Assembly (NCBI GenBank): GCA_947178235.1 | Contig: CAMWXQ010000001.1 | Location: 1-26,666 of the forward strand | Direction of reading: 5' to 3' | DNA length: 26,666 bases | From: an uncultured Muribaculaceae bacterium | Lineage (GTDB): Bacteria > Bacteroidota > Bacteroidia > Bacteroidales > Muribaculaceae | In this document: positions 4,030 through 25,224 of the stretch, in pieces | Numbering within the stretch: the stretch's first letter is position 1 | Layout of the letters: every line of letters begins with the position of its first letter | The notes under the pieces: generated by a model | What the model saw: only the letters and a program-made list of their open reading frames with translations | Told to the model about the DNA's origin: nothing | Databases searched by the model: none | Translations under genes and position numbers: made by a program

Positions 4030-4070
4030 AGTCGAGTATGAGAAATGGTAGAATTGATTGGTTTCGGTCA

Positions 4071-4104
4071 CAAAGTTAACCCCGGCCTATTACACCACGC
4101 TTAA
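4071..4104 (-). promoter_or_regulatory. Promoter with phased TTAA heptamers, GH43 operon (site A)
   Basis: Read on the minus strand, heptamer TTAAGCG (4104-4098) is followed 11 bp later by GTAATAG (4093-4087), then 8 nt, then TAACTTTG (4078-4071), a perfect match to the Bacteroidota -7 consensus TAnnTTTG. A 13-nt block (CAAATTAAGCGTG, 4108-4096) is identical to one in the GH2 promoter and sits at the same distance (17 nt) from the -7 box there. No TTTG -33 box is evident at the usual spacing, as expected if an activator is needed. The -7 match is direct observation; activator binding is inferred. Confidence 0.65.
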
Positions 4105-4170
4105 TTTGGGCCACGCACACCAAAACCACAAAAATCAGTGGCACAATCCATTACGGAAACGGCGGCAAAA

Positions 4171-4238
4171 TTAAGCGATAATTAATTCAGGCGTTAACCG
4201 CATTTTTAGCACCTATTATATATAGAACGATAAATTTG
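4171..4238 (+). promoter_or_regulatory. Promoter with phased TTAA heptamers, GH3 gene (site C)
   Basis: Heptamers TTAAGCG (4171-4177), TTAATTC (4182-4188), TTAACCG (4194-4200), TTTAGCA (4205-4211) and a weak TTATATA (4216-4222) follow each other at steps of 11, 12, 11 and 11 bp. After exactly 8 nt comes TAAATTTG (4231-4238), a perfect TAnnTTTG -7 element. The expected transcript start just downstream supports the ATG at 4256 for the GH3 gene over a GTG at 4238, which would lie in the -7 box. Site A for the divergent operon lies 66 bp away in the same gap. Confidence 0.65.
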
Positions 4239-4255
4239 TGGAAAAATTTACCGTG

Positions 4256-6616
4256 ATGAACAAAACCTTCCTCATCCCCCTCGTGCAGTGCATCTTCGCG
4301 GTCGGCCTCGCCCATGCGGCGGGCCCCGCGGACATATACCATGACGGATGGACCGACTTCAACAAGAACGGCCGCATGGACTCTTACGAGAACCCGCGGC
4401 TCACCGTCGGCGAGCGGGTCGAAGACCTGCTCGGACAGATGAACATGGAGGAGAAAACCTGTCAGCTCGCCACGCTCTACGGCTCGGGGCGTGTCCTCGG
4501 CGACTCACTGCCGACCGAGGCGTGGAAGGATGAGATATGGAAGGACGGCATCGCCAACATCGACGAACAGGCCAACGGCCTCGGGAAATTCGGGTCGTCC
4601 CTCTCGTGGCCGTGGGAGGCGAGCGTCGCCAACCGCCACGCCATACAACGGTGGTTTGTCGAGCAGACACGTCTCGGCATCCCCGTGGACTTCACCAACG
4701 AGGGTATCCGCGGCCTCAATCATGACCGCGCCACGATGTTCCCCGCCCAGTGTGGCCAGGGGGCGACGTGGGACCGCGCCCTCATACGCGAGATCGCCCG
4801 CGTCACCGCCGAGGAGGCCACGGCCCTCGGGTACACCAACATCTATGCCCCGCTGCTCGACATCTCGCGCGACCCCCGGTGGGGGCGCGTGGTCGAGTGC
4901 TACGGCGAGGACCCATACCTCGTCGGGGAACTCGGACTGCAGATGATCCTCGGTTTGCAGGAGCGGGGACTGGCCTCGACACCCAAGCACTTCGCCGTGT
5001 ACAGCGTCCCCGTCGGAGGGCGCGACGGACAGACCCGCACCGACCCCCATGTGGCGCCGCGCGAGATGCGCACCCTCTTCCTCGAACCGTTCCGCAAGGC
5101 TGTTCAGGAGGGGCACGTCAAAGGGGTGATGAGCTCGTACAACGACTATGACGGCGAACCGATCACGGGGAGCCACCGCTTTCTCACCGGGATTCTGCGC
5201 GACGAGTGGGGATTCGGCGGATATGTGGTGTCCGACAGCGAGGCGGTCGAGTTCCTGCATACCAAACACGGGGTCGCCGCCGATGCGGTCGAGGGGGCGG
5301 CGATGGCCATCAATGCCGGCCTCAATGTCCGCACCAACTTCACCCCTCCCGAACAGTTCATCCTCCCCCTGCGCGAGGCGGTGCGACGCGGGCTGGTCTC
5401 AGAGGAGACCATCGACGACCGCGTGCGCGACGTCCTGCGCGTCAAGTTCGAGCTCGGCCTCTTCGACAACCCCTACAAGGGTGACGCCGAGGGGATCGAG
5501 ACCCGCGTCCACAACGCCGACCACAAGGATGTATCGCTCCGCGCGGCCCTCGAATCGATAGTGCTGCTCAAAAACGAGGGCTCTGCCCTCCCCCTCGACA
5601 AGTCGCTCGGCCGCATCGCCGTCATCGGCCCCAATGCCGACGAGACGCAGAACCTCATCTGCCGCTACGGCCCCGCCAACGCCCCCATCAAGAGTGTCTA
5701 CCGCGGTCTGAGCGAGTATCTGCCCGATGCGGAGGTGAGATATGCCCGCGGGTGTGACATCATCGACCCCTACTTTCCCGAGAGCGAGATGTATGACGTC
5801 CCGCTTGACGAGGCCGAGCGGCGCGGAATCGAGGAGGCGGTCGAACTGGCCCGCAACTCGGACGTGGCTATCCTCGTGCTCGGCGGCAACGAGCGCACCG
5901 TCCGCGAGGAGTACTCGCGCACATCGCTCGACCTCTGTGGCCGTCAGCAACAACTCTTGGAGGCGGTCTGCGCCACAGGCACCCCCGTGGTGCTCGTGAT
6001 GGTCGACGGCAGGGCCGCGTCGATCAACTGGGCACAACGCAATGTCCCCGCCATCATCCACGCATGGTTCCCGGGCGAGTTCACCGGCGAGGCTGTGGCC
6101 CGCGTCCTCTTCGGCGACTACAATCCCGGGGGGAAACTCCCCGTGACCTTCCCGAAGTCGGTGGGTCAGATTCCGCTCGCCTTCCCCTTCAAGCCCGGGG
6201 CGGACACCGACGGATTCGTGCGTGTGGCCCATGCCCTCTACCCCTTCGGGCACGGACTCAGCTATACGACTTTCGAGTACTCGGACCTCGCGGTCGCCCC
6301 CGTGGCGGACGGGTGTTTCGAGGTGACCTGCAAGGTGACAAACACGGGCAGTCGTGAGGGTGACGAGGTCGTGCAGCTCTATATCCGCGACGTCGTGAGC
6401 TCGGTGACAACCTATGTCAAGGTCCTGCGCGGTTTCGAGCGTGTGACCCTCGCCCCGGGCGAGACGCGCGAAGTGCGTTTCACCCTCACCCCCGCCGACC
6501 TCGCCCTGTGGGACAAGGATAACCGCTTCGTGGTGGAGCCCGGCGACTTCAAGGTGATGATCGGGTCATCGTCGGAGGATATAAGGCTCATGGGGGAGTT
6601 GAGAGTTGAGAGTTGA
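4256..6616 (+). CDS. GH3 beta-glycosidase, secreted
   Basis: This 786-residue enzyme has a Sec signal peptide (MNKTFLIPLVQ..., cleavage near AHA/AGP) and the full three-domain GH3 architecture. It contains an N-terminal TIM barrel with the signature PLLDISRDPRWGRVVECYGEDP, the nucleophile in VSDSE (Asp327), an alpha/beta sandwich with the acid/base in REEYSRT (Glu551 or Glu552, more likely Glu552), and a C-terminal FN3-like domain (VVQLYIRD to the end). The family covers beta-xylosidases, beta-glucosidases, arabinofuranosidases and hexosaminidases; the PRWGR/ECYGEDP type is common among xylosidases and glucosidases. The last five codons and the stop fall inside a 7-bp tandem repeat, so the C-terminus LRVES may be repeat-derived. 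It is monocistronic or loosely followed by the GH2 gene, which has its own promoter. Confidence 0.93.
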   Translation: MNKTFLIPLVQCIFAVGLAHAAGPADIYHDGWTDFNKNGRMDSYENPRLTVGERVEDLLGQMNMEEKTCQLATLYGSGRVLGDSLPTEAWKDEIWKDGIANIDEQANGLGKFGSSLSWPWEASVANRHAIQRWFVEQTRLGIPVDFTNEGIRGLNHDRATMFPAQCGQGATWDRALIREIARVTAEEATALGYTNIYAPLLDISRDPRWGRVVECYGEDPYLVGELGLQMILGLQERGLASTPKHFAVYSVPVGGRDGQTRTDPHVAPREMRTLFLEPFRKAVQEGHVKGVMSSYNDYDGEPITGSHRFLTGILRDEWGFGGYVVSDSEAVEFLHTKHGVAADAVEGAAMAINAGLNVRTNFTPPEQFILPLREAVRRGLVSEETIDDRVRDVLRVKFELGLFDNPYKGDAEGIETRVHNADHKDVSLRAALESIVLLKNEGSALPLDKSLGRIAVIGPNADETQNLICRYGPANAPIKSVYRGLSEYLPDAEVRYARGCDIIDPYFPESEMYDVPLDEAERRGIEEAVELARNSDVAILVLGGNERTVREEYSRTSLDLCGRQQQLLEAVCATGTPVVLVMVDGRAASINWAQRNVPAIIHAWFPGEFTGEAVARVLFGDYNPGGKLPVTFPKSVGQIPLAFPFKPGADTDGFVRVAHALYPFGHGLSYTTFEYSDLAVAPVADGCFEVTCKVTNTGSREGDEVVQLYIRDVVSSVTTYVKVLRGFERVTLAPGETREVRFTLTPADLALWDKDNRFVVEPGDFKVMIGSSSEDIRLMGELRVES

Positions 6617-6647
6617 GAGTTGAAAGTTGAAAGTTGAGAGTTGAAAG
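6596..6647 (+). repeat. Heptameric tandem repeat GA(G/A)AGTT, about seven copies
   Basis: Copies of GAGAGTT or GAAAGTT run head to tail from 6601 to 6647, with a degenerate copy ending at 6600. The repeat covers the last codons and the stop codon of the GH3 gene (TGA at 6614-6616). With a 7-bp unit, slippage would change the reading frame and the C-terminal residues. Confidence 0.9.
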
Positions 6648-6660
6648 ACAAATTTGATGA

Positions 6661-6702
6661 ATTAGACTAATTAGACTAATTGGACTAATTGGGCTGATTA
6701 GG
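6661..6702 (+). repeat. Nine-bp tandem repeat ATTAGACTA, 4.7 copies
   Basis: ATTAGACTA occurs twice, followed by ATTGGACTA, ATTGGGCTG and a partial ATTAGG. It directly follows the heptamer repeat and lies 37 bp upstream of the phased heptamer array of the GH2 promoter. It is probably a neutral simple-sequence expansion; no function is visible. Confidence 0.85.
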
Positions 6703-6739
6703 CCTCGAAAAATATGTTCTACAACATAAATCACGATTA

Positions 6740-6784
6740 TTAACCGCAAATTAAGCGTGTATTATTGTCCTGCGCGTACTTTTG
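6740..6784 (+). promoter_or_regulatory. Promoter with phased TTAA heptamers, GH2 operon (site B)
   Basis: Heptamers TTAACCG (6740-6746) and TTAAGCG (6751-6757) are separated by 4 bp (11-bp pitch). A weak third unit TTATTGT (6762-6768) keeps the pitch, then 8 nt precede TACTTTTG (6777-6784), a perfect TAnnTTTG -7 box. The first heptamer sits in GATTATTAACCG, a 12-mer repeated exactly in the GH92 promoter (25174-25185). The remaining leader to the ATG is about 50 nt. Confidence 0.7.
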
Positions 6785-6837
6785 TGGCATAATGCACGAC
6801 TGACATAAATACCATCTTCATATTTCAGAACCAATCA

Positions 6838-9800
6838 ATGAACCTCAGAACCTCAGTATTGCCTTTGCTCTGGCTCGCTTTCACCCCCTTTGCGGAGGCC
6901 ACGGATCTCTTCTGTGACTTCTCCAAGGCAGGCGAACAACTGACCACCGTTGGACGCGGCGAAGCCGTCGTGGCCGACGGCCTGTTGAAGACCCGCGACA
7001 GCTATGCCCTCTTTGGCAATCCCGACTGGAAAAACTATACCGTCACATTCAAGGCCCGCGCACCGAAGGGTGCGGATCAAGTTCAGATCTGGGCCGGTTT
7101 CCGTACCAAGAACCGATTCGACCGCTATGTCCTCGGCATCAAGGGTGGCCTGCAAGATGACCTCTATCTGATGCGCACGGGGTACATGGGCACCGACGAG
7201 CTGATGGGTGTCCGCCCCCTCGGCTTCCATCCCGAGCCGGGCGAGTGGATCGACGTCAAGGTCGAGGTTTGCGGCCCCCGCATGAGGGTGTTCGTGAACA
7301 ACTCCAAGCTACCCTACATCGACATCGAGGACAAGAACGGATGGGAGCTCGCCGAGACAGGCCCCGTGGCCCTCGGCGGCGGATGGATCGACACCGAATT
7401 CGACGACCTCAGAGTGACTCCCCTCGCCGACAACGCCCTCGACGGCGTGAAGGCAGACGAGCTCTTCCTCGGCCTCACTCCCGCACAGAAGGAGGCCAAG
7501 CGCGTCAGCGAGCGCGCCGATTACCGCCCCAAGCGTCTCGAAAAGACCGAAGGGGCGCGAACAGAGTTCTCGCTCGACGGCGACTGGCTCTTCATGCCCT
7601 CGTATCAGCTCTCCGATGCCGCTGCAGCAACCGACGCTGGACACGACGATGCAGACTGGCACGTCATGAATGTCCCAGACTTCTGGTCGCCGATACGCAT
7701 CTGGCTCCACGGCGAGACGATGCCCTCCCCCTCGGGCCATCAGCCCAAGGGTGTCTCCGACACATACTATCAGCAGGAGACAGACCGCTGTGAGAACTAC
7801 ACCTTCGACCACCGCAAGACCAAGGAGGCATGGTACCGCCAGTGGCTCGAACTCCCCGATGATATTAAAGGTAAGAAACTCACCCTCCAATTCGACGCCG
7901 TATCGAAGGTCGCCGAGGTGTACGTAAACGGCCACAAGGCGGCATCGCACATCGGAATGTTCGGCAACTTCGATGTAGACGCAACCAAGTGGCTCCACCC
8001 GGGGCGCAACCTCATCGCCATCAATGTCGTGCGCGACATCAAGGGGGCGGGGCCGCAGACCTCGGACGCCATGGAGAACTTCTACTCGTCGGTGCGCAAG
8101 GATGTCGAGGACAACAAGGGTGACGCCCAGGCCAACGCCGAGGTACTCGCCGACATCCCGCACGGATTCTTCGGCGACAACCCCGCCGGTATATGGCAGC
8201 CTGTCAAACTCGTGGTCTCCGACCCGCTCATGGTCGAGGATGTCTACATCAAACCGAACCTCTCGGGGGCCGACTTCGAGGTCACCGTCGCCAACAACTC
8301 GACCAAGAAACGTAAATTCGACCTCTCCGTCGCCATCACCGACAAGCAGACCGGCGAGACCCTGTGGTCGGGCCCGCTCGCCAAGAAACTGACCCTCGGA
8401 CCGGGCGCCACAGAGACCTTCGACGCAACCGTCGGCGGCCTCCTGCCCAAACTGTGGGAGCCCTCGGACCCGAACCTCTACGACTTCCGCTTCGCGCTCA
8501 CCGAGGGCAAGAAGGAGACCGACGCATACGCAGTCACCTCGGGATTCCGCACGTTCGAGGCCAAGGATGGCTTCTTCGAGCTGAACGGACGCCGATTCTG
8601 GCTCCGCGGAGGCAATCACATCCCCTTCTCGCTCGGCATGAATGACGCCGGGCTCGCCGACAAGTTCATGAGCCTGATGCGCGAGGGCAATGTCAACTCG
8701 ACCCGCACACACACGACCCCGTGGAACGAGCTGTGGATGGATGCCGCCGACCGCAACGGCATCGCCGTGAGCTTCGAGGGCACATGGTCGTGGCTGATGA
8801 TACACTCCACCCCGATACCCTCGAAAGCCACGCTCGACCTGTGGTGCAACGAGTGGTTGCAGGTGATGAAGAAGTTCCGCAACCATCCGTCGCTCATCTT
8901 CTGGACCATCAACAACGAGATGAAGTTCTACGACCTCGACGCCGACAAGGAACGCGCCATGCAGAAGTTCCGCATCATCTCGGATGTCGTGGGTGATATG
9001 CGAGAGACGGACCCGACACGTCCCATCTCGTTCGACTCCAACTATATGCGCCGCAACGGCCTCCATCGCTTCGGCCCCGAGTTCATGGCTACGGTGGACG
9101 ACGGCGACATCGACGACAACCATGCCTATTACAACTGGTACGACTTCTCGGTATTCCGTTTCTTCAACGGCGAGTTCCAACGTGACTTCCTCACCCCCGG
9201 CCGTCCCCTCATCAGCCAGGAGATGAGCACCGGGTATCCGAACGCCGAGACCGGCCACCCGACACGCAGCTATCAGCTCATACATCAGAACCCCTACTCG
9301 CTCATCGGCTACGAGGCATACGACTATGCCGACCCCGCCTCGTTCCTCAAAGTGCAGTCCTTCATCACCGGCGAGCTCGCCGAGGCGCTGCGACGCACCA
9401 ACGAGAAGGCTTCGGGCATCATGCACTTCGCCTACATGACCTGGTTCCGCCAGTGCTATGACAAGGATAACATTGCCCCCTGGCCGACCTACTACGCCAT
9501 GCAGCGCGCCATGCAGCCCGTGCTCGTGAGCGCCGAGCTGTGGGGACGCAACTTCTATGCCGGCGAGCGGATACCCACACGCGTCTATGTCGTCAATGAC
9601 AGCGAAGATGGCCGCGACCTCGGCGAGACCACCCTCACATGGGCGCTCCGCGATGCCGACGGGAAGACACTCGCCGCAGGCTCGGAGAGCTTCCCCGCCG
9701 TCGAATACTATGGGCGCCGCTACATCGAGCCCTCCATCACCGTCCCCGAGGCGATCGGCGACGCGAAACTATACGGAAAGCTGACCCTGTCGCTCACCGA

Positions 9801-10515
9801 GGGTGGCAAGGAGATCTCGGCCAACGAGTATGACCTGACCCTCGCCCCGCGCAGCTGGGCACAGGCCCCGAAGAGCTCGGCAGACATCGTATTCGTGGGC
9901 TCGGACGCCCAGGCCGATGCCCTCGCCTCGATCGGCGTGGGTGTGCGCCGCGAAGACAACATCGGACAGATCTTCGGCAAGAAGGCACCCCGCCCCGACC
10001 TCTGCATCGTGGCCACCGCAGCCCTCACCGACGATGAGGTCTCGGCGCTCCGCGCCTACCAGGCAGCAGGGGGCCGCGTCCTGCTGCTCGACGCCGGCAA
10101 GACCGCCGCGAGCCTCTATCCCGAGTTTGTGACCGGGGTCATCAACCCCACCGAGGGTGACATCGTGGTGGTGGAGCGCAGCGACGACCCCATGTTCGAC
10201 GGCCTCGCGCCCCTCGACCTCAGATACTTCAACAACAACCAAAGGGAGATACCCCTGGCCTGCAACGCTACACTCAAAACCGTGCGTGACCCCCGTCTGC
10301 GCGAGCTCGCGTCACAGATGAAGATACACGCCTACATCGACGGCGGGGCTCCCGAGGACCGCATCAAGAAAATCGAGTCGATGCGCGGCCTCACCCTCTT
10401 CGAGATCGAGGATGGCGACGGCAAGGGTGTGGTATCGACCATCACCACCGACCGCGCCGCCACCGACCCGATCGCCGGCCGCATCCTCGCCAACATGATA
10501 GGCCGACTGCTCTGA
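6838..10515 (+). CDS. GH2 glycoside hydrolase with N-terminal jelly-roll and C-terminal amidotransferase-like domain
   Basis: This 1225-residue protein begins with a Sec signal peptide (cleavage near AEA/TDL). Residues about 22-200 form a concanavalin/DUF1080-like jelly-roll (WKNYTVTFKAR, RYVLGIKGG, GEWIDVKVEV). Residues about 240-900 carry the GH2 sandwich, immunoglobulin-like and TIM-barrel domains (LSLDGDW-like FSLDGDWLF, YRQWLELP, ELNGRRFWLRGGNHIPFS). The acid/base is Glu694 in INNE and the nucleophile Glu795 in ISQE. The C-terminal 230 residues look like a class I glutamine-amidotransferase/ThuA-type flavodoxin fold (DIVFVGSDAQADAL, YQAAGGRVLLLDAG), as in some large bacterial beta-galactosidases. 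GH2 members are beta-galactosidases, beta-mannosidases, beta-glucuronidases or arabinosidases; which one is not clear. It is 47 nt ahead of the GH43-CBM6 gene and probably cotranscribed with it from site B. Confidence 0.9.
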   Translation: MNLRTSVLPLLWLAFTPFAEATDLFCDFSKAGEQLTTVGRGEAVVADGLLKTRDSYALFGNPDWKNYTVTFKARAPKGADQVQIWAGFRTKNRFDRYVLGIKGGLQDDLYLMRTGYMGTDELMGVRPLGFHPEPGEWIDVKVEVCGPRMRVFVNNSKLPYIDIEDKNGWELAETGPVALGGGWIDTEFDDLRVTPLADNALDGVKADELFLGLTPAQKEAKRVSERADYRPKRLEKTEGARTEFSLDGDWLFMPSYQLSDAAAATDAGHDDADWHVMNVPDFWSPIRIWLHGETMPSPSGHQPKGVSDTYYQQETDRCENYTFDHRKTKEAWYRQWLELPDDIKGKKLTLQFDAVSKVAEVYVNGHKAASHIGMFGNFDVDATKWLHPGRNLIAINVVRDIKGAGPQTSDAMENFYSSVRKDVEDNKGDAQANAEVLADIPHGFFGDNPAGIWQPVKLVVSDPLMVEDVYIKPNLSGADFEVTVANNSTKKRKFDLSVAITDKQTGETLWSGPLAKKLTLGPGATETFDATVGGLLPKLWEPSDPNLYDFRFALTEGKKETDAYAVTSGFRTFEAKDGFFELNGRRFWLRGGNHIPFSLGMNDAGLADKFMSLMREGNVNSTRTHTTPWNELWMDAADRNGIAVSFEGTWSWLMIHSTPIPSKATLDLWCNEWLQVMKKFRNHPSLIFWTINNEMKFYDLDADKERAMQKFRIISDVVGDMRETDPTRPISFDSNYMRRNGLHRFGPEFMATVDDGDIDDNHAYYNWYDFSVFRFFNGEFQRDFLTPGRPLISQEMSTGYPNAETGHPTRSYQLIHQNPYSLIGYEAYDYADPASFLKVQSFITGELAEALRRTNEKASGIMHFAYMTWFRQCYDKDNIAPWPTYYAMQRAMQPVLVSAELWGRNFYAGERIPTRVYVVNDSEDGRDLGETTLTWALRDADGKTLAAGSESFPAVEYYGRRYIEPSITVPEAIGDAKLYGKLTLSLTEGGKEISANEYDLTLAPRSWAQAPKSSADIVFVGSDAQADALASIGVGVRREDNIGQIFGKKAPRPDLCIVATAALTDDEVSALRAYQAAGGRVLLLDAGKTAASLYPEFVTGVINPTEGDIVVVERSDDPMFDGLAPLDLRYFNNNQREIPLACNATLKTVRDPRLRELASQMKIHAYIDGGAPEDRIKKIESMRGLTLFEIEDGDGKGVVSTITTDRAATDPIAGRILANMIGRLL

Positions 10516-10562
10516 GAAACAAATACAATCAACCATAACCATCTAATTCCAAAAACATTATC

Positions 10563-13500
10563 ATGCACAAAACCATCATCGGACTGCTCGGAGCCTCTGC
10601 GCTCCTATGCGCTCCCGCCGCGTATGGCGCCGTATTCGGACCGGACGGCGAGCAGCCGTACGTCTACGACTACTTCGAGAGAACAGACCCGGCCTCATTC
10701 CTCGCTTCATATAAGGGAGAGGCTTTCAAAACCCACACCCTCAAAGCCGGCGAAGCCGTGAAGGTCGAGGCTGAATACTTCGACAAGGGCAACAAGGGTG
10801 AGGTATGGAACTTCAAATATCCCGGGGCATCGGACCTCCGCCCGGGCGAAGGTGACCTGCCCAAAATCAACAACGGAGGCACCGGCAAGGTGATCGGCAA
10901 CGTGAGCGGCGGTGACTGGATCTGCTATACCCTCGACGTGGCCGACGCCGGCGAGTACAAGATCACTGTCCACGTCAGCTCGGACGGTGCCCGCACACTG
11001 CACTTCGAGGTCGACGGCAATGCCGCCGGATCGGTGTTCAGCTTGCAGGGCCTCGGATGGGACAACTACTTCGATGTCTCGGGGAGCGGATACCACTTCT
11101 CGGAGGGCAAGCATGTCCTCAAATGGGTCCCCTCGGAGAGCATGAATATCGACTACTTCATCTTCGAGCGCGTCGGCGAGTATGACGGCCAGGCTGCCGC
11201 AGGCCCATCGTTCGTCTACCCCCGCACAAGCTCGTACACGGGGAATCCCCTCTTCACCGACTTCACATCACCGATGTTCGGGAGCGGTTTCACCGGCCAT
11301 CTCTACACCGCCGACCCCTCGGCCCACGTCTTCGACGGCACACTCTACGTCTATGCCTCGCACGACATGGAGCCCCCGCAGGGTTGCGACCGCATGGACC
11401 GCTACCATGTATTCTCGACCACCGACCTGGTCAACTGGACCGACCACGGCGAGATCATGAACGCAGCCACCTCGAACCTCTACACCGGCACCACCGGCGA
11501 CGGCTTCATGTGGGCACCCGACTGTGCATACAATCCCCATGACGGCAAGTACTACTTCGTCTACCCGCACAAGATCAACGTAGACCCCGCCACGACCGAC
11601 ATCCCCTCGCCCAACGAGCCGCAGGCCACCCTGCGCTGGGCCCACTTCCTGGCCGTGAGCGATACCCCCGTAGGCCCCTTCAAGTGTCTCGGCTACATCA
11701 AGGGTATTCCCTCGACCATCGACCCCTGTATCTTCGTTGACGACGACGGCGAGGCATACATCTTCACCTCGGGCCACGGCCACGGCTGCTGGGGCGCGCG
11801 TCTCAAAAAGGACAACTGGCTCGAACTCGACACCGAAATGGTGCCCATGGTCGGCCACGACGGCACCGAGAAGGGGGGATTCGAAGACCTCCACGAGGCT
11901 CCCTATATGATCAAGCGCAACGGCATCTACTATCTGATGCACTCTGACAACAACGCAAACAACAACAAACTGCGCTACTCGACCGCCCAGAACCCTCTCG
12001 GCCCCTTCACTCCCCAGGGCGTCTTCATGTACCCCCACGGCCATGACACCCACCATAACTCGCTCGTGGAGTTCAACGGGAAGTGGTACTCGTTCTACCA
12101 CACCGGCGACTACTCGGCAAGAGGCAACCTCCGCTCCGTATGCTTCGACGAGGCCACCTTCTCGGCCGACGGCAAGCTCAACATCGTGAATACATGGGGC
12201 ACACCCGCCAACGGTACCCCCGTGGCTGTCTCCGTCAAGGGTGAACCAGTGACCATCCCCGCATCCGCATACAACCTCGGCGGCAATGGCCGCGGATACT
12301 TCAAGCGCGAGGGTGAACCCGGCAACGGCACCATCAGCCTCGGCAACGAGGAGTGGGTACGCTACTCGATCAATGTGGCCGAGGCAGGACGCTATGCCCT
12401 CGCCGTGAAAGGTCAGAACGCCTCGACCGCAGCCAAGCTCGTCGTGTCGACCAACGGCGACTGGCGCACATCATCGAACGGCGTCGAGTGGCCCAAGGGT
12501 GACAACGAACTCTACATCTATCCCCTCAACCTCCCCGCCGGCGAGCAGTATATCGAGCTCCGCGTGAAGGGTGGCGAGATCGACATCGAGAGCTTCACGA
12601 TGGGCCGCGGCCAGGTAAATATACCCGGCACCATCGAGGCCGAGGATCTCGACCCGGACAACTACTACCACAAGCAGTTCATCGAGAACGGCAGTCTCAA
12701 AAACACCTACCGCGACGATGTCGCCGTGGCCATCGCAACCCAGAATGGTGTAACCCGCATCGGCAATACCTCGAACGGCGACTACTTCACCTACACCTTC
12801 AACGTTACACAGGAAGGACGCTACTCCGTGGACACTTATGTATCCGTCGGTCAGAACTGGGGCGCATACACCCTCGAATTTGACCGCGGGACCGAAAACG
12901 CCCAGAGCTTCTCGGAGCGCTTCGACGCCGTGATCCCCGAGGGCGCATCCAATGGATGGGAAACCTTCGTACCTGTCACCACCCGCAAGATTGACCTCAC
13001 CGAAGGCGTGCACACCATGCGCTTCACCGTCGACAACGGACTGAACCTCGACCGCTTCGTCTTCACCCGCAACGGCGACCTCCCCATCGCCATCGACCCC
13101 GCCAAGATCAAGAATGAGATTCCCGGCACCATCATCGCCGGTATGATTGACTCCGAGGGGTATCGCCACCAGCAGTTTGCCAACGGCGGCCTCCGCAACG
13201 ACTACAAGAACAACCAGGATGTGGCTGTCCGCATCACCGGTTCGGGTTCCATCGGCAACCTCACGCCCGGCGACTACTTCACCTACTACTTCAACGCCCA
13301 GATGGACGGTATCTATCACCTCGACTTCATCGGTCAGAACTATCTGAACGGGGTCGGTCGGTTCAAGATCACCTTCGACAATGACCGTGAGATCACCGGG
13401 TCGTTCGTTGGCACCGACTGGAACGACAATATCCTCGTAGACCTCGGCGAGATCGAGCTCGAAGCGGGCTACCATGTGATGCGCTATGACGTCGTCGCAG

Positions 13501-14162: not shown

Positions 14163-14186
14163 GCTCATCAGTTGATTAACTCCCCC

Positions 14187-14230
14187 AGGGGAGGGGTAAG
14201 TAGTCTTTCGTGACTGTCGACCCCTCCCCT
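14187..14230 (+). terminator. Hairpin, probable terminator or attenuator after the GH43-CBM6 gene
   Basis: An 11-nt arm AGGGGAGGGGT (14187-14197) is perfectly complementary to 14220-14230, with a 22-nt loop, and is followed by ATTTTAT. It lies 24 nt after the GH43-CBM6 stop codon and 31 nt before the GH95 start. No -7 box is visible between it and the GH95 gene, so it may be a leaky terminator that lowers GH95 expression within the operon. Confidence 0.65.
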
Positions 14231-14261
14231 ATTTTATCCAAAACTACCAAAACCGATCCAA

Positions 14262-17200: not shown

Positions 17201-17468
17201 GGCTGGGAATCTCTGCCGCATCAAGTTTGACGGCGCCGCGTCGGCCCTCGCATCGGTGCCCGGAGCGGTCATCGAGGACGGATGCCTCGTGTTCCCGACC
17301 GACAAGGGTATGGAGTATGTCATTACGGTCGACAACTCGGGCCTCGCGGCCATAGGGGCCGACAAGGGTGAGAACACAACCCTCTATGACCTCCTCGGCC
17401 GCCGCGTCACCAATCCCACCCCGGGCATCTATGTCCGCAAGAACGGCAAGGTGGCGGTGACACGCTGA
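14262..17468 (+). CDS. GH95 alpha-L-fucosidase/alpha-L-galactosidase with inserted discoidin-like domain
   Basis: This 1068-residue protein has a signal peptide (cleavage near AEA/KQP) and the GH95 fold: an N-terminal beta domain (ATNWEEEALPLGNGYMGAM), an (alpha/alpha)6 barrel and a C-terminal sandwich. Candidate catalytic residues, by comparison with Bifidobacterium AfcA, are Asn598 and Asn600 (TNINVQMNYW), Glu733 (SLSPE) and Asp916 (FQIDGNFG). Between LSDIHID (about 177) and YNDYERILDID (about 327) lies a roughly 150-residue insertion that looks like an F5/8 type C domain (ALFDGNVDTKW, WTLYGSADGENY, KLSIEKL), absent from ordinary GH95 proteins of about 780-800 residues. The C-terminus (LYDLLGRRVTNPTPGIYVRKNGK) is a short sorting-like tail. 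The family removes alpha-1,2-L-fucose or L-galactose from glycan side chains. It lies 99 nt after the GH43-CBM6 gene, behind a hairpin, with no obvious own promoter. Confidence 0.92.
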   Translation: MKPIRTIIPMAAMAVALSAGAEAKQPPMKAVYDRPATNWEEEALPLGNGYMGAMVFGGVFNDVIQTNEKTLWSGGPGEDASYDGGHHNSPATARKALQGMRSRLQRWMNEFDNSRYEQTGNWRDARNYPYLGNYESDWTKTQNVNDENSYFINRMLGTKKHFGSFQTLSDIHIDDCGFPTLVTGSPWTNYDNDKNLTQTVTALFDGNVDTKWFSETHDGRTFPVDIKWEYDKAARITGYRLGSGDDMPVRDPQRWTLYGSADGENYTAIDKRAGVTWAGRKELKEFTLDAPVDGYRFFKLSIEKLQSSGQKPQLSEIQLIFDESLTRYNDYERILDIDRGVQTVSYSMGDAKYLREYFVSYPDRVMVVRLTGDKPFSRSISLDCKHSDYTVSCTDGELVLTGWPTPVSNFDHGGKNSGRENPDWKNALRFAQVIKIQSTDGTVSVDEAAKKLVVDNATEITIVMSAATNYQSCYDTSYNYFAAKDPLADAREAVNGVAGKPYAELLSAHTGDYRALYDRNRVNLGTDTVPGKCTDALLAAMADGTITDAEQRYLEMLYYQFGRYLLIASSRPGSLPANLQGVWCDRTSGAWNSDYHTNINVQMNYWPAEQTNLSECHIPMVEFVRSLEPRGTQTAQHYHCKPDGSDVRGWTTYHEVNAWGNTAPAAEGTHSYFPEGAAWLCQDIWEHYLFTRDLDFMAEYFPTMKNAALFWVDNLWTDERDGTLVANPSLSPEHGDFSLGCTATQGIICELFDAVIQAASDLGLAADPEVKEIAAAKERLSMPKIGKGGQFQEWKDEIQKDLTGDGEWDASRGRFINTHRHTNHLYWLHPGSQIVAGRSAQEDAYVKAMKVTLDTRGDEGTGWSRAWKLNFWARLRDGNRALNLLHNCLTLTHNVSNAPGGVYTNLFDAHPPFQIDGNFGATSGVAEMLMQSQGGYIELLPALPDAWSDGEFTGLCARGGFDVDVNWKNGRVQKAVVRSKAGNLCRIKFDGAASALASVPGAVIEDGCLVFPTDKGMEYVITVDNSGLAAIGADKGENTTLYDLLGRRVTNPTPGIYVRKNGKVAVTR

Positions 17469-17491
17469 CGAGATAGTTCCCAGCAATACGA

Positions 17492-17529: not shown

Positions 17530-17548
17530 GTTGTATGGTGAGGGCCAA

Positions 17549-17809: not shown

Positions 17810-17823
17810 GCAATCTGTACCAT

Positions 17824-17865
17824 AAAAAAGATGTATCGAATCTCCCGATTCGATACATCTTTTTT
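17824..17865. terminator. Bidirectional intrinsic terminator after the SGNH gene
   Basis: Arms 17824-17842 and 17847-17865 are perfectly complementary (19 bp including A6/T6 ends) around a TCCC loop. The inner 13 bp read GATGTATCGAATC. With a U-run on either strand it can end transcripts from both directions; the SGNH stop codon lies 18 nt away. Confidence 0.9.
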
Positions 17866-17883
17866 ATTCAGGGGATATGGGGA

Positions 17884-20505
17884 TCAGAGGAGGACTTTGC
17901 GGGCGCCGTTGGCACCTACGACTACATAGACGCCGGAGGGGAGCTGGGCGTCGGTGTATGCGCCTTTGAATACGGGGATTCCGCAGAGGTTGTAGATTGT
18001 GACGGTGTTGTCTTCGGTCTCGGTGACAAATTCAACCTCTTCGAGCGAGGTGGTGTCATCGGCCTCGACAAGCTCACGCTTCACGAAGTTGAAGTTTGAG
18101 AAGGTCATGTTGATCTTGTCGAGAGTGAGGACGTCGTCATAAAGATACATCCAGCACGAAGCGATGGGGGCTGCCTCCCAGGTCATACCGCCGTTGAGAG
18201 TGAACGAGGAGAGGGGGAGTGTATAAGTATGTTTGCCGAACTGCCAGTCGAGTTTCTTGATGTTGTAGTTGCTCGCTCTCGCGGATGCCGACTGAATTTC
18301 GTTTGCCGTGCATGATGCAAGGAAGATACCTTGACCGCCCGCACCGGTGATATTCCCCAGAAGCGCGGGATCATCATTGCCATCGAGCGATGAGATCTCG
18401 ACATCGAAGCAGAACGATGTGTTGGCGGGATCGGTGACTTCGACAGGCATGTTGAATTCCAAACGCATGAATGCGTAGGTCTTTGCAGGGCCTCCGAGTG
18501 TGAATGTAGCCTCGTCGCCTAAGTTGCCAGGCTGAACGAAGTTGTATCCGGTCTCAACCACAGTGTTCTGATAGTATCGGCTGCGGTCTACGAGCTTGGC
18601 GTTCTTGGTCTTGAAGACGTAATTGTTCTTCTGCATACGGGCGAACGATACGCCGGCGGTGGTATATCCGCCGTCGAGGGGAAGCTGATCGATGAAGGGG
18701 CTGTCCTTGAATGGGATAACCATGTGGTTCCACTGGCCGCTCTTAACCTCGCTGAGCATTGCACCGAAAACATCGTTCATCTGCTCGCTCATGTTGGTGA
18801 AGTTCCATTCGTATCTCTCGGTAGTGGCTGTGGCAGGTTTCTTCATCTTAACGAAGAAGTAGTTCTGGGGCTGATTGCCGTGGGCTGCGTCGGAGGGGAG
18901 GATCTTGCCCCAGACGATGCCGGGGAAGGCGGGCTCGCCGGCGGCTACGCCGGGAGTCTCGACATACATATCGAATTCGAGGTAGAGGGTCTCGGTATCA
19001 CAACCTTCGAGGGTGAAGGGGATATTGGATATGCCCATCTCGTTGTATGCCCACCAGGGGTCATTCTTTTGGGGATCGATACATGTTCCGTTTCGCTCGC
19101 CTACATACTCGACGATGGTGTAGTAGTCAAGATCGTCGGGAGTATCGGGGTCGGTGGTCTCGCCGCCGGCGGGATTGTTGCCGTCGCCGTCACCGGGATC
19201 GGTGTATGTGCCGTTGATGGCCGAGAATACCATATTGGCCATCTGCTGGTGGCCTGTGGCGTTGTAGCGGTAGCCGTCGGAGAGGTAGTTGGTTGCGTCG
19301 ACGGCGGATGCGGTGTTGACGACGTCAACATTGAGTTTTGCGGCGACCTCGCGGAGGATGGGATAGAGCTCCTCGCGCATCACGGTGCCGCGGACGTTGC
19401 TCGTGGTGCGGTCACCCTTGGTGCGGGTGGGAAGGCAGAGGTAGATCTTGGCCGAGGCGTTGGTCTGACGGATGGCGTCGACCATGTGGGTGAGGTCCTG
19501 TTCGATCTCGTGCTTGTTGGCCCAGTTCCATTCGGATGTATCCTTCTCGCCGAGGTCGATGGTGACGATGTCGGGCGACTTGTTGATGACGTTGTTGGTG
19601 AAGTCATTGTGGTCGGCGTAGCCGCTCGTGACTGTTGCGGTCTCGGTCTCCTTGCCGGAGCGGATGATGGTGCGGTTGGCGACACCGGCGTTGACGGTGC
19701 TGAGTGTGCCGTTGGAGAGGGTCTGGAGCACTGCGGGATAGTACTGATCGGTGTTGACACCGGTTTTCAGACGCGAGCCGCCGATGCAGGAAACCACCTG
19801 GACCTTGCGCGGGGTGTGTGCGGGGTCGTAGGTACCGTAGTTCGCGTTGAGGATGGCGTCGGCGATGCGTTCGGCCATGATGCGGGCACCTGTGGGATTG
19901 GGGTGTACGCCGTCGTTATAGGCGGTCTCCCAGTCTGCCCCGAGAGACTCCTCCATGACGGTGTGGAGATTGATGACGGGGATATTGTATTCCTCGCCGA
20001 GCTCGTAGATCGCAGGGATGATCTTGTGGATATTGGTCTCCAGGATGCCGAAGTCAGACTTGATGGTGCGGAGAGGGAGGCAGAGGTAGATCTGAGGATG
20101 GGTATCGAGGTCGCGGAACGAGTTGATGATCGTACGCATATCGGTCTTGAAGCGTTCGGTGCCTGTCCAGTTGGCCGCCTTGGCGTCGTTGGTTCCGAGC
20201 TTGATGATGACGATGTTCGGGTCGAAGGCGAGAGCGCGGGGGTAGACGTCTCGTTTGATGTAGCTCTCGGAGTCGGAGATGGTCTGTGCGGTGGCGCCGC
20301 TGCTGCCGAAGTTGCTGACCTTGTATCCGTCGCCCAGAATCTGTTGAAGCTGGGACGGATATTTTTGACTGTCAGTGTTGATGCCGGACCCAGCGGTGAT
20401 GGAGTTGCCGACGCACGCGACGCGTATCGGATCGGCTGCCCGCGAGGCGAGCCCGACCGATAGGAACAAGGCGCACAAGAGAATGTGCAGTAGTCGTTTC
20501 CTCAT
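17884..20505 (-). CDS. Secreted tandem SGNH/GDSL-hydrolase protein with C-terminal beta-sandwich and sorting-like tail
   Basis: This 873-residue protein has a Sec signal peptide (about 1-24). Residues 27-222 form an SGNH hydrolase with all four blocks: Ser35 in GNSIT, Gly70 in NFGSSG, Asn106 in GTND, and Asp198/His201 in NDGVHPN. Residues 233-430 repeat the fold, but the blocks are degenerate: GGS at Ser244, GEKD instead of GTND, and DGYRYN instead of DxxH. The second domain is probably non-catalytic. A Pro/Asp/Gly-rich linker (TDPGDGDGNNP) leads to about 400 residues of predicted beta-sandwich, which I do not recognise, and a tail (TIYNLCGIPVF, LPSGVYVVVGANG) of sorting-domain type. SGNH enzymes in glycan loci are usually carbohydrate esterases, removing acetyl or similar groups. 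It is monocistronic with its own promoter (site E) and a strong terminator. Confidence 0.85.
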   Translation of the reverse strand: MRKRLLHILLCALFLSVGLASRAADPIRVACVGNSITAGSGINTDSQKYPSQLQQILGDGYKVSNFGSSGATAQTISDSESYIKRDVYPRALAFDPNIVIIKLGTNDAKAANWTGTERFKTDMRTIINSFRDLDTHPQIYLCLPLRTIKSDFGILETNIHKIIPAIYELGEEYNIPVINLHTVMEESLGADWETAYNDGVHPNPTGARIMAERIADAILNANYGTYDPAHTPRKVQVVSCIGGSRLKTGVNTDQYYPAVLQTLSNGTLSTVNAGVANRTIIRSGKETETATVTSGYADHNDFTNNVINKSPDIVTIDLGEKDTSEWNWANKHEIEQDLTHMVDAIRQTNASAKIYLCLPTRTKGDRTTSNVRGTVMREELYPILREVAAKLNVDVVNTASAVDATNYLSDGYRYNATGHQQMANMVFSAINGTYTDPGDGDGNNPAGGETTDPDTPDDLDYYTIVEYVGERNGTCIDPQKNDPWWAYNEMGISNIPFTLEGCDTETLYLEFDMYVETPGVAAGEPAFPGIVWGKILPSDAAHGNQPQNYFFVKMKKPATATTERYEWNFTNMSEQMNDVFGAMLSEVKSGQWNHMVIPFKDSPFIDQLPLDGGYTTAGVSFARMQKNNYVFKTKNAKLVDRSRYYQNTVVETGYNFVQPGNLGDEATFTLGGPAKTYAFMRLEFNMPVEVTDPANTSFCFDVEISSLDGNDDPALLGNITGAGGQGIFLASCTANEIQSASARASNYNIKKLDWQFGKHTYTLPLSSFTLNGGMTWEAAPIASCWMYLYDDVLTLDKINMTFSNFNFVKRELVEADDTTSLEEVEFVTETEDNTVTIYNLCGIPVFKGAYTDAQLPSGVYVVVGANGARKVLL

Positions 20506-20550
20506 GATGATAGTTGTTGATTATGATATTTAGTATGTATTATTTGTGTG

Positions 20551-20596
20551 CTAAGTTACCACAAGGGGATTAACAAGGAGATTAATTCCCGATTAA
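20551..20596 (-). promoter_or_regulatory. Promoter with phased TTAA heptamers, SGNH gene (site E)
   Basis: On the minus strand TTAATCG (20596-20590), TTAATCT (20585-20579) and TTAATCC (20573-20567) follow at 11 and 12 bp, then 8 nt, then TAACTTAG (20558-20551), one mismatch from TAnnTTTG. Spacing and layout match the GH92 promoter position by position, including the GTTAA-pyrimidine-CCC third unit. The leader to the ATG at 20505 is about 40 nt. The rest of the divergent gap (to 20731) has no comparable array for the plus-strand gene. Confidence 0.6.
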
Positions 20597-20731
20597 TGCG
20601 GCATCTTTTTGTCGATTTTTTCAAAAAAAGCCAGTATGAAGAGCGATAGTGAGCCCCAACGTGCCTAAACATTAGGGGGAGGGTCTTTGTATATACTATT
20701 GGACATTCACCACGTTTCTATCCCCACTCAT

Positions 20732-22429: not shown

Positions 22430-22434
22430 GGCTC

Positions 22435-25029
22435 TCATTCGGCGGTGTCTTTGGCTCCGCGCTTGATGAGCTGCGAGAAGGGCACGGGGTACTCCTCGCC
22501 GTAGCTGCGCTCGTACTCGCGACAGAAGGCGTCGTAGGCGCTCTTGGCCACGCCCTTCATGCGCTTCTGGGTCAGTATGCGGCACTTGACGGCAAGTGCC
22601 TCCTCGCTGAGGGGGTCGTGGAGCGATATGGTCTCGGCAATCTTGTAGAGTATCTCGCGGTCACCTTTGGTTCCGATACGCCCGAGGAGTCCCGAGAGTA
22701 TGTGGAGCGAGGTGGCGGTGTAGTTGCTCTTGAAGTCATCGAGCCAGTCGTAGACCGTATCGGGGAGGAGGGGGCCGTAAAGGAGGAGTTCGATGGCCTC
22801 TTCGAGCCTCTCGCCCGAGAGGCTGTCACCCTTGGCGCCATCGCCGATACGGGTCATGACCTCGTGATAGTCTATGGTGACGTCGGCGGGGTCTATGCGG
22901 TAGTAGCCCTTCTCGTATGTGATGTCGGCGTTGCCGACCTCGCTGAGGAGGAGGCGGAGTTTGCGCATATAGACATTGCGGTTGTTCTTGGCCGATTTCT
23001 CGTCCTTGTCACCCCAGATGGCCTCGTCGAGGGTCTGGTATCCGACCCCCTTCTCGCCCTTCTCGCTGAACAGGATGAGCATGATGAGCAGGTCCTTGGT
23101 GCGCGATGTGAACTTGGGTGTTATGTCGGCGCCGTTGCGGTCCTTGATCTCGAACGTGCCGAGGAAGGAGATGGCGCTGCGCGAGCGGTCGAACCTCGCG
23201 GGTGCAGGGGGCTCCGGCGCGGGTTCGGGTGACGCAGTTGCGAAGGGCGCATCGGGTTCCGAGGGCTCGGTAGAGTCGTCAGCCGAGGTAGCATCGGAGG
23301 GAGCAGGAGTGTCGGAGGCGGTGTGGGATGAGAGCCTGCGGCGACGCTCGAACCACCATGCGGCACACGCGGACACGAGCAGCAGGACGGCGAAGAGCCA
23401 CCACCATACCGATGAACTGCGGCGCGTCTCGGGCAGGGCGGGAGGCGGTGTCTTGGCGACGACACCACCGCTGAACGGGTATGCTATATGATAGAGGCGA
23501 TACTCGTGGCTGTAATCATTGAGACGCTTGTCGATGACGAGGTAGTAGTTGCGTCCGTCGGCCGAACGGTAGAGGTTGAAGACGCAGTCGCGGTAGTCCA
23601 TGATGGAGCGGATCGGCTGGGAGACAACCTCGTAGCCGGGATGCGAGGGGGAGATGCGCATCATGCATCCGCCGAAGAGCGTGGAGGCGACGTAGAAGCA
23701 TGAGTCCCTGGGGACATAGTACATCGACTGGGAGGGGAGGAACTGGTACGAGACCGTATCGGTCTCCCACAGACACTTACCCTTCATCGTTTCGAGGTCG
23801 TACTCCCACAGGTCGAAGTAGTGGCGCGAGGGGATCTCCTGCTTGCCGACGCTGTTGCCCATGCCACCGAATATATACAACTTGCCACCGGCCACGCAGA
23901 GCGACGCCGAGGTGCGCGGGTCGGGGAGCGGGTGGAGGGTGATGTCCTCCATGCTGCCCGTCGCGAGGTCGAGGCGCACGAGCATATTGTTGTACATATA
24001 GAATCCGTAGCCACCGAACATATATGCGTTGTGGCCGTCAGAGGCGAAACCGTGATTGGCGAAACGGGGTTCGTTGTCGGCGGCGGGATCAACGCCTTTG
24101 AGCCAGCGGTGGGTCTTGAAGTCGAATCGGTTGGTCTGCTTCGGTTCGAGGCTATACGAGAGGAGCTGTCCGGCTATCGTGTCGTAGAACAGATAGTTGG
24201 AGTACTTCATCACCCTCGCGTCGGCATCGACTCGGATGTTGGTCGAGGCATGGGTGAGGGGGTTGAACTCGGTGATGCGCTCCGAGGTGACGATATAGAA
24301 TAGTTCGTCGCGGGGGTCGAAAGCGGTCTGGACCTTCTCGTCAGTGGTCATCGAGTATATCTCGCGCCACGAGACATGGTCGTCGAGAATCCAGTGGGGG
24401 GACTGGGCTACGGCGACGACGTCCGAGAGGTCGTCGGTCACCGAGTCGCCGTCATGGCGGCGGAGCTCCCAGCGGTGGGTATTCTTCTTATCTATAAATA
24501 TGCGTATGTCCTGGATCTCGACCGGGGCCACGGAGGCTTGGGTCTCGGCCTTGCCGAAGTGTATGGTGGCCGACTTCATGCGCGAGAGGTCGACCGGGAA
24601 GGTGAAGCGTTCCTGGTTGTAGGTGAACTGTACGGTGTTGTCCTTGCGGTTGAGCTCGATGACCGAGTGCGAGGGATGGGCCGGGGTAGCATCGAAGCGG
24701 ACAGGCACGAGGTTGAGTTTGTCGTTGATGACGATGCCGGGCTGATAGTCCCTGTCGCGGCCCGATGAGGAGACGAGCGAGATGGCCGTGCCGTCGTCAC
24801 CGGTGATAGTACATATAAGTCCGAAACGGGATGTGTCATAGAAACCCATGTCGAAGCCGAGGGAGATCTGATCCTTGAACTGATACGGGCGGTCGCCGAG
24901 CGACAGGGACGTGCGCTCGGGCGTCGGGAAGGAATGGGACTTGAAACGTAGTCCGTATTCCATACCGAAGGCAAACAGGCTGCTCAGCAATATCAGTGCA
25001 GAGAGAAAGTAGCGGGATTTCGTTCCCAT
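22435..25029 (-). CDS. Membrane-spanning one-component regulator: jelly-roll, Kelch propeller, TM helix, SARP-type DNA-binding domain
   Basis: This 864-residue protein starts with a hydrophobic signal/anchor (FLSALILLSSLFAFG). Residues about 27-182 resemble a concanavalin-like jelly-roll and about 215-510 a Kelch/galactose-oxidase-type propeller (AYMFGGYGFYMYNN, KLYIFGGMGNSVG). One transmembrane helix (about 538-560, WWWLFAVLLLVSACAAWWF, then ERRRR) separates these periplasmic parts from a Pro/Ala/Ser/Glu-rich cytoplasmic linker. Residues about 617-712 are an OmpR/SARP winged helix (RTKDLLIMLILFS, LDEAIWG, NNRNVYMRKLRLLLSEVG, GYYRID) and the rest an alpha-helical BTAD-like region (HDPLSEEALAVKCRILTQ). 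There is no kinase, receiver or AraC domain. The most direct reading is a ligand-sensing activator embedded in the inner membrane. The ATG at 25029 was preferred to a GTG at 25080 that lies in the -7 box. It is divergent from the GH92 gene. Kelch-only database hits could mislabel it galactose oxidase. Confidence 0.88.
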   Translation of the reverse strand: MGTKSRYFLSALILLSSLFAFGMEYGLRFKSHSFPTPERTSLSLGDRPYQFKDQISLGFDMGFYDTSRFGLICTITGDDGTAISLVSSSGRDRDYQPGIVINDKLNLVPVRFDATPAHPSHSVIELNRKDNTVQFTYNQERFTFPVDLSRMKSATIHFGKAETQASVAPVEIQDIRIFIDKKNTHRWELRRHDGDSVTDDLSDVVAVAQSPHWILDDHVSWREIYSMTTDEKVQTAFDPRDELFYIVTSERITEFNPLTHASTNIRVDADARVMKYSNYLFYDTIAGQLLSYSLEPKQTNRFDFKTHRWLKGVDPAADNEPRFANHGFASDGHNAYMFGGYGFYMYNNMLVRLDLATGSMEDITLHPLPDPRTSASLCVAGGKLYIFGGMGNSVGKQEIPSRHYFDLWEYDLETMKGKCLWETDTVSYQFLPSQSMYYVPRDSCFYVASTLFGGCMMRISPSHPGYEVVSQPIRSIMDYRDCVFNLYRSADGRNYYLVIDKRLNDYSHEYRLYHIAYPFSGGVVAKTPPPALPETRRSSSVWWWLFAVLLLVSACAAWWFERRRRLSSHTASDTPAPSDATSADDSTEPSEPDAPFATASPEPAPEPPAPARFDRSRSAISFLGTFEIKDRNGADITPKFTSRTKDLLIMLILFSEKGEKGVGYQTLDEAIWGDKDEKSAKNNRNVYMRKLRLLLSEVGNADITYEKGYYRIDPADVTIDYHEVMTRIGDGAKGDSLSGERLEEAIELLLYGPLLPDTVYDWLDDFKSNYTATSLHILSGLLGRIGTKGDREILYKIAETISLHDPLSEEALAVKCRILTQKRMKGVAKSAYDAFCREYERSYGEEYPVPFSQLIKRGAKDTAE

Positions 25030-25079
25030 GTTCAGCGGAATGGGTCTAAGGTGAATCAGACAATGTTGGTTTGATGTCA

Positions 25080-25110
25080 CAAAGGTAGTGATTCTTTTTG
25101 ATTCCGCAAT
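25080..25110 (-). promoter_or_regulatory. Promoter of the Kelch-SARP regulator gene
   Basis: On the minus strand ATTG (25110-25107) is followed by 19 nt and TACCTTTG (25087-25080), a perfect TAnnTTTG -7 box with a near-consensus -33 (TTTG). No TTAA heptamer lies 8 nt upstream of this -7 box, so the regulator gene appears to have a housekeeping promoter. The leader to the ATG at 25029 is about 45 nt. Confidence 0.6.
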
Positions 25111-25167
25111 ACCCTCTGAGGGCCCAAAATGGCATTTTTGATGTTAAAATCGTAAGTTTTGGCCCGA

Positions 25168-25224
25168 TTAAGTGATTATTAACCGATGCTTAATAGGGGG
25201 GTTAACCCCGAGGTGCTTATTTTG
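25168..25224 (+). promoter_or_regulatory. Promoter with phased TTAA heptamers, GH92 gene (site D)
   Basis: TTAAGTG (25168-25174), TTAACCG (25179-25185), TTAATAG (25190-25196) and TTAACCC (25202-25208) follow at 11, 11 and 12 bp. After exactly 8 nt comes TTATTTTG (25217-25224), one mismatch from TAnnTTTG. It is the clearest of the five arrays, with four units all starting TTAA, and lies in the gap shared with the regulator gene. No -33 box is evident. Confidence 0.68.

Follow-up and report, generated by a model that had tools for sequence, protein, structure and literature searches.

Phased TTAA heptamer arrays as putative operators of a predicted membrane-anchored SARP-fold activator in a Muribaculaceae bacterium

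Results

TTAA arrays at promoters of glycan genes

The stretch analysed here (the window) comprises 26,666 nucleotides (nt) from an uncultured Muribaculaceae bacterium (GenBank assembly GCA_947178235.1, contig CAMWXQ010000001.1, positions 1 to 26,666). It encodes glycoside hydrolases of several GH families, a double GDSL lipase/acylhydrolase and a protein, here called the regulator, in which a Kelch propeller is joined by a predicted transmembrane (TM) helix to a C-terminal domain with the predicted fold of SARPs (Streptomyces antibiotic regulatory proteins). Five promoters of the window carry arrays of TTAA-type heptamers directly upstream of a Bacteroidota -7 box (Table 1). A sequence-only reading had taken these arrays for sites of a SARP-type activator that substitutes for the -33 contact of RNA polymerase, and we followed up this proposal across the window, the remainder of the genome and related genomes.

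Direct reading and a script both place arrays A, C, B, E and D at the positions first reported, and in all five the heptamers follow one another at 11- or 12-bp steps with an 8-nt gap to the -7 box. Array C has five slots, three of them with an exact TTAA, and the -7 boxes of D and E each carry one mismatch to TAnnTTTG. The arrays recur at related promoters. Site A is backed by the promoter of an orthologous GH43 gene in locus L061 (protein identity 88%), where TTAATCT, TTAACGC, N8 and TATATTCG occupy matching slots; GH3 orthologues with arrays (array C) lie at L058+8077 (78%), L062+15269 (74%) and L061-16003 (81% over 388 aa), and GH2 orthologues with arrays (array B) at L058+10551, L061-13473 and L119+6008 (76-77% identity). 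A GDSL gene related to the target of array E (42% identity, 443 aa), on contig C9 of the same genome, is preceded by an array of its own.

The -7 box at GH92 (window 25217-25224) has T for A at base 2, giving TTAnTTTG, and the same holds for its orthologues in L199, L200 and L201. Shared by four orthologous promoters, this form looks as if a weak core promoter had been retained at GH92.

Table 1. Positions of arrays, palindromes and genes
Feature	Position	Strand	Details
Array A	4071..4104	minus	TTAAGCG 4104, GTAATAG 4093, N8, -7 box TAACTTTG 4078-4071
Array C	4171..4238	plus	TTAAGCG 4171, TTAATTC 4182, TTAACCG 4194, TTTAGCA 4205, TTATATA 4216, N8, TAAATTTG 4231
Array B	6740..6784	plus	TTAACCG 6740, TTAAGCG 6751, TTATTGT 6762, N8, TACTTTTG 6777
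Array E	20551..20596	minus	TTAATCG 20596, TTAATCT 20585, TTAATCC 20573, N8, TAACTTAG 20558
Array D	25168..25224	plus	TTAAGTG 25168, TTAACCG 25179, TTAATAG 25190, TTAACCC 25202, N8, TTATTTTG 25217
Palindrome TATGTTCTACAACATA	6713..6728		Matches published BT4338/Cur motif with 0 mismatches; centre precedes array B (first unit) by 19 bp
Nine family-locus palindromes	window 6713-6728; L058 10487; L059 6007, 15357; L060 12238; L061 13522; L066 16580; L068 3439; L108 7973		
Regulator	22435..25029	minus	Beta-rich N-terminal part, Kelch propeller, TM helix (predicted), C-terminal SARP-fold domain (predicted)
Probable -7 box of regulator gene	25080..25087	minus	TACCTTTG, by eye
GH43 (target of array A)	3076..4071	minus	Further GH43 and ROK genes downstream on same strand
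GH3 (target of array C)	4256..6616	plus	Open reading frame listed from GTG 4238; ATG 4256 is 3' of the -7 box
GH2, GH43-CBM6, GH95	6838..17468	plus	Run of genes behind array B
Double GDSL lipase/acylhydrolase (target of array E)	17884..20505	minus	
GH92 (target of array D)	25262..26666	plus	Truncated by window end

A scan of the window that required at least two exact TTAA in register returned five matches (C, B, D, E and a spurious reverse reading of C) and missed A. In dinucleotide shuffles of the intergenic DNA (n = 200) such matches averaged 0.04 and never exceeded 1. The reverse-strand match, at 4136, was rejected as a palindromic re-reading of array C. Thirteen of the 25 TTAA words of the window fall inside the five arrays, and pairs of TTAA occur five times at period 11 and three times at period 12, compared with a mean of 0.0 at 12 other periods. 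The same scan at gaps of 6, 7, 8, 9 and 10 nt scored 3, 4, 5, 4 and 1; because steps of 11 and 12 bp were both allowed, neighbouring gaps score too, and the window scan alone does not fix the gap at 8. The exact value rests on direct reading and on a histogram of offsets over the regulator loci described below, in which the distance from the start of a TTAA in an 11/12-bp pair to the -7 box is 15 nt in nine cases, 14 in one and 16 in one.

The same rule points to promoters elsewhere in the genome (assembly of 1.70 Mb, 58% complete). The pattern TTAAN{7,8}TTAAN{7,8}TTAA has eight forward matches, four in the window, one on contig C9, one on C77 and two in a tandem repeat on C213, and its reversed control has none; with spacers of N{5,6} there is one match, and with N{9,10} there are eight, all judged by eye to be low-complexity AT repeats. 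The promoters on C9 and C77 had not been used in defining the rule, and in both the gap is exactly 8 nt and TAnnTTTG is matched perfectly. A third, on C53, was found with a pattern of two TTAA and half of a palindrome attributed to the carbon-limitation regulator Cur (see below), the -7 box being no part of that pattern; it reads full palindrome, TTAATTG, TTAATCG, (ATTCCCC), TTAATCC, N8 and TAATTTTG, and the gene behind it is 74% identical to a gene of genome G240 with the same arrangement of palindrome and array. The genome thus has three further array promoters outside the window. TTAASCG pairs on C51, C53 (5028) and C139 were discarded because they are not in register.

The C77 promoter (L011 4040-4270), with its array and perfect -7 box, reads into a stretch of about 80 nt that closes with a strong terminator-like hairpin (z -6.8) and a convergent gene. 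This promoter possibly drives a short RNA under the same regulator; an Rfam scan of the putative transcript gave no family above the gathering score.

A set of 48 promoters was assembled from 47 of 66 raw scan matches together with site A, the other 19 matches having been removed by eye as weak or misplaced. The consensus of 99 exact units, from the 32 promoters of an orthologue set, is mainly TTAA(T/G/C)(C/T)G, with G at position 7 in 63%. Steps of 12 bp make up 26 of 102 between exact units (three sets summed) and are concentrated between units 1 and 2, counted from the -7 box (16/27, compared with 10/75 elsewhere, p = 9e-6). It follows from this 12-bp step that unit 2 overlaps the -33 position, much as the upstream repeat of the Streptomyces afs box lies on the -35 element. 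Direct repeats at 11 bp whose last member ends 8 bp from a -10-type element are the operator form known for SARPs, and the arrays have this form, with 12-bp steps as well; the rule of about 11-bp repeats 8 bp upstream of -10 that the sequence-only reading had cited agrees with the available part of PMC10936776. The genes behind the arrays encode GH3, GH2, GH43, GH92, GH31 and DUF5703/GH95-like proteins, esterases and SusC-like receptors.

The regulator and its predicted SARP-fold domain

The open reading frame of the regulator extends to a GTG at 25080; a start at Met18 (25029) is preferred, and the database entry (P0002) has 864 aa. A TM helix is predicted at residues 556-580, between the Kelch propeller and the C-terminal domain, which would put the propeller on the periplasmic side and the C-terminal domain in the cytoplasm. 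A fold search with the whole model returned the Kelch propeller only, among the matches listed, and the C-terminal part was therefore modelled alone. In a profile search of the PDB with the whole alignment, the 60 matches listed all had their best stretches in the Kelch part of the profile. It is predicted as a winged helix plus seven helices, and AfsR and EmbR are its top fold matches, well above the next match, with a root-mean-square deviation of 6 Å to AfsR. In SARPs an OmpR-type winged helix has an all-helical BTA domain behind it, and the predicted structure shows both in this order. In classical SARPs the SARP domain is N-terminal (PMC10936776, in its available part); here it stands C-terminal, behind the Kelch propeller and TM helix, and we therefore treat the regulator as a new architecture that includes a SARP-fold domain rather than as a classical SARP. 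In the window, TACCTTTG is the probable -7 box of its gene, and no TTAA array was seen by eye upstream of it.

Arrays accompany the regulator across genomes

The SARP-type domain of the regulator is present in 11 of 297 family genomes, this one included, and 32 of 393 genomes of the order have a relative (query P0093, E <= 0.001), three of the 32 being weak. We collected 358 kb around the family regulators and 371 kb around 20 order-level regulators from ten Bacteroidales families; two control sets consist of loci far from known regulators, in genomes that partly overlap with these. At period 11 the family loci have 50 TTAA pairs (mean 10.0 at other periods) and the order-level loci, with the ten families pooled, 67 (20.1), compared with 3 (2.7) and 6 (7.5) in the controls. 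For recurrence at 11/12 bp in the order set, TTAA ranks top of all 256 tetramers. Loci of Prolixibacteraceae and related bacteria with a distant SARP domain (L072-L085) show a weaker period-11 signal (29, compared with 11.2) and ten arrays at gap 8, where other gaps give 0-2; these arrays have two exact units each, mostly in far slots, their units are C-rich, and there may be near-copies among the loci.

The arrays could instead serve another regulator, whether SusR-like, a hybrid two-component system, an extracytoplasmic function (ECF) sigma factor or the ROK-family protein that is likewise encoded in the window, with the Kelch regulator a mere neighbour. We consider this unlikely. The geometry is that of the published SARP rule (PMC10936776, available part), the regulator has no Pfam match to a histidine kinase, receiver or AraC-type domain, which separates it from hybrid two-component systems, and the arrays gather at Kelch-SARP genes, paralogues included, in genomes of four genera. 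Genome-wide counts of TTAA triples were dropped as a test of regulator dependence, being too sensitive to AT content when used alone, and for this reason genus-stratified counts, GH92 promoters and co-location were used instead. Triples are commoner in regulator-positive genomes within genera g1 (3 vs 24 genomes) and g13 (5 vs 9; stratified p = 2.5e-5), and the reversed-triple control in these two genera is not significant. When 29 GH92 homologues were compared, arrays of at least three exact units preceded 7 of the 11 from genomes with the regulator and none of the 18 from genomes without it (p = 2e-4), a contrast partly confounded with divergence; at 55% identity or above it stands at 7/11 vs 0/7 (p = 0.01). 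Merged TTAA triples were listed in 72 cases over the 11 genomes, including that of the window and, in part only, G155; 22 of the listed cases are no more than about 20 kb from a regulator, where 1.2 are expected.

Two partial regulator genes stand beside arrays: L115 5515-6453 (G228, contig C51), with residues 39-352 only, and L116 10146-11633 (G155, contig C48), with the N-terminal part at a contig end. Both were missed by the search with the C-terminal domain and were not counted as near in the co-location test.

Phased TTAA might also be a structural feature of strong promoters, acting through curved DNA or an UP-type contact of the RNA polymerase alpha subunit with no dedicated activator, and the AT-rich units and a period close to the helical repeat would fit this. 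It is nevertheless less probable still. Full arrays at gap 8 number 36 (family) and 24 (order) in the regulator loci and 0 and 2 in the control loci, despite 190 and 687 -7-like words there; the units show a non-AT preference in their G at position 7, and they reach into the core promoter, as far as positions -26 and -15 ahead of the -7 box. In the regulator sets other gaps (2-4 and 12-15) gave 1-7 arrays and, 8/9-bp steps aside, control steps gave 3-12. Most family genomes contain TTAA triples, and so do AT tandem repeats, but chance or low-complexity repeats read as a pattern are very improbable in view of the shuffles, the spacing controls, the specificity of period and gap, and conservation at orthologous promoters.

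A Cur-type palindrome in phase with the arrays

Upstream of array B lies a perfect copy of the palindrome TATGTTnTAnAACATA, which the available parts of PMC3878776 and PMC6989115 place upstream of sugar genes, first as a predicted motif and later tied to binding of BT4338 (Cur) at fusA2; the copy at C53 is likewise without mismatches. At the family regulator loci, each of the nine palindromes with at most two mismatches is followed by a TTAA whose start lies 18-19 bp from the palindrome centre, compared with none of six at control loci. In eight of the nine a second TTAA follows 11-12 bp further on, and in six there is a -7 box in register; by orthology the nine collapse to about five promoter types. 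The in-register -7 box lies 56, 66-68 or 78 bp from the palindrome centre, corresponding to 3, 4 or 5 slots with both end distances constant, which suggests a continuous row of bound protein. The pattern of a half palindrome and two TTAA, weak evidence when taken alone, occurs in 7 of 11 regulator-positive and 4 of 29 other genomes (p = 0.004), these 29 having been hand-picked from 286; four of its 12 matches had the full palindrome with at most two mismatches, all four in regulator-positive genomes and three of them already known.

In genomes G092 (L066 16580) and G119 (L068 3439), the palindrome and two TTAA units lie upstream of the regulator gene itself, with no recognised -7 box. Autoregulation is possible in these two genomes, an arrangement not seen in the window.

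Other features of the window

GH2, GH43-CBM6 and GH95 probably form one operon driven from array B. Tandem repeats of GTTGAGA- and TTAGACTAA-like units, recognised by eye at 6596-6702, separate GH3 from this array. A frame of 1080 codons is open on the minus strand antisense to GH95 (14244-17486); it has no Pfam match and is probably a composition artefact.

Discussion

We interpret the arrays as putative operators of a membrane-anchored activator with a predicted SARP fold, the regulator encoded at 22435..25029, which would act with Cur as partner at some promoters, and put the probability of this reading at roughly 85%. The proposal of SARP-type activator sites in place of a -33 contact is supported by geometry, co-occurrence and a predicted fold.

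In the mechanism that we envisage, the Kelch propeller would face the periplasm and probably sense a glycan breakdown product, and the single TM helix would join it to the cytoplasmic SARP-fold domain. On activation, several such domains would settle side by side on the TTAA heptamers, about one per turn. With the gene-proximal unit 8 nt from the -7 box and unit 2 over the -33 position, the bound protein could hold RNA polymerase in place of the -33 contact and switch on glycoside hydrolase and esterase genes, as well as SusC-type genes in relatives. Some promoters may in addition be bound by Cur, at a palindrome whose helical phase to the first unit is fixed, and substrate sensing and carbon limitation would thereby be combined. 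A broader proposition, at odds barely better than even, is that Kelch-SARP proteins form a class throughout the Bacteroidales that builds rows on TTAA from the -7 box upwards, docked in the family of the window at 18-19 bp onto Cur as one continuous complex, the sigma -33 contact being replaced and the two signals joined by DNA geometry.

A number of observations weigh against this interpretation. Site A is the weakest array, with a single exact TTAA, and of the nine TTAASCG pairs in the genome three are out of register. The step controls are imperfect, since 8/9-bp steps gave 23 and 12 arrays where 11/12-bp steps gave 36 and 24, and the period is scarcely present at some order-level loci (L160, L161, L165 and L168). 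As many as 255 of the 297 family genomes contain TTAA triples, much of this reflecting AT content, and by eye the regulator-positive genomes of genus g30, which like g4 falls outside the stratified test, have no excess. Four of the 11 regulator-positive GH92 genes are without an array, and the regulator-negative ones are more distant on average (45-72% identity, two above 60%). The palindrome phasing of 18-19 bp holds in one of five order-level cases; at L108 the TTAA at +18 stands alone with no array, and at L113, in the wider set, the first in-register TTAA lies at +29. For the protein, the Pfam search with the C-terminal domain alone gave Trans_reg_C below the cut-off (E 0.026) and no BTAD match, and the SARP assignment leans on the predicted structure and on PF03704 as precomputed for three of 120 listed homologues. 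Two points lower our confidence slightly, in the main reading and in the broader proposition alike: divergence partly confounds the GH92 contrast, and among the nine palindromes one lies outside any array.

If correct, this interpretation would carry the SARP promoter rule from antibiotic regulation in Streptomyces to a phylum with another promoter consensus, which bears on the generality of the mechanism, and would place a further class of sensor alongside SusR, hybrid two-component systems and ECF sigma factors in the use of polysaccharides in the gut. The putative operator code is readable and predicts targets, having pointed to the three unlinked promoters in the same genome, and the fixed phase between the Cur palindrome and the array offers a model, open to testing, for the joining of substrate and carbon-limitation signals. 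A search of open-licence literature, judged by titles and abstract openings, found among the papers listed no SARP-type regulator of Bacteroidota glycan genes, and the SARPs treated in the available part of PMC10100984 belong to Streptomyces.

Several known systems share parts of this arrangement. Membrane-bound activators of the ToxR/CadC type couple an OmpR-type winged helix through one TM helix to a periplasmic sensor, as is predicted for the regulator, whose DNA-binding domain, however, is C-terminal and followed by a BTA-like helical domain, and whose sensor is a Kelch propeller. With the Cur (BT4338) regulon the window shares the palindrome, here set in fixed phase with a SARP-type array. 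SusR and the hybrid two-component systems of Bacteroides polysaccharide utilization loci are described in the available part of PMC3878776 as membrane-spanning sensors with a cytoplasmic DNA-binding domain that activate polysaccharide utilization genes; the regulator resembles them in its predicted topology and in the genes concerned, but it differs in having a predicted SARP fold where no kinase, receiver or AraC domain was found, and in compact arrays that abut the promoter core. A parallel in geometry is the afs box bound by AfsR in Streptomyces coelicolor, where direct repeats about 11 bp apart end 8 bp before the -10 element with the upstream repeat over the -35 (PMC10936776, available part). 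The predicted fold of the DNA-binding half, the repeat spacing, the 8-bp gap and the position of the upstream repeat over -33/-35 are alike in the two. The arrays of the window type differ from the afs box in their TTAA core, their two to five slots, the frequent 12-bp step beside a Bacteroidota -7 box and their glycan genes, and whereas AfsR has NOD and TPR domains, the regulator carries its SARP-fold domain at the C-terminus of a predicted membrane-anchored Kelch sensor. By operator geometry and predicted fold the regulator therefore appears SARP-like, yet its architecture is not that of the classical SARPs.

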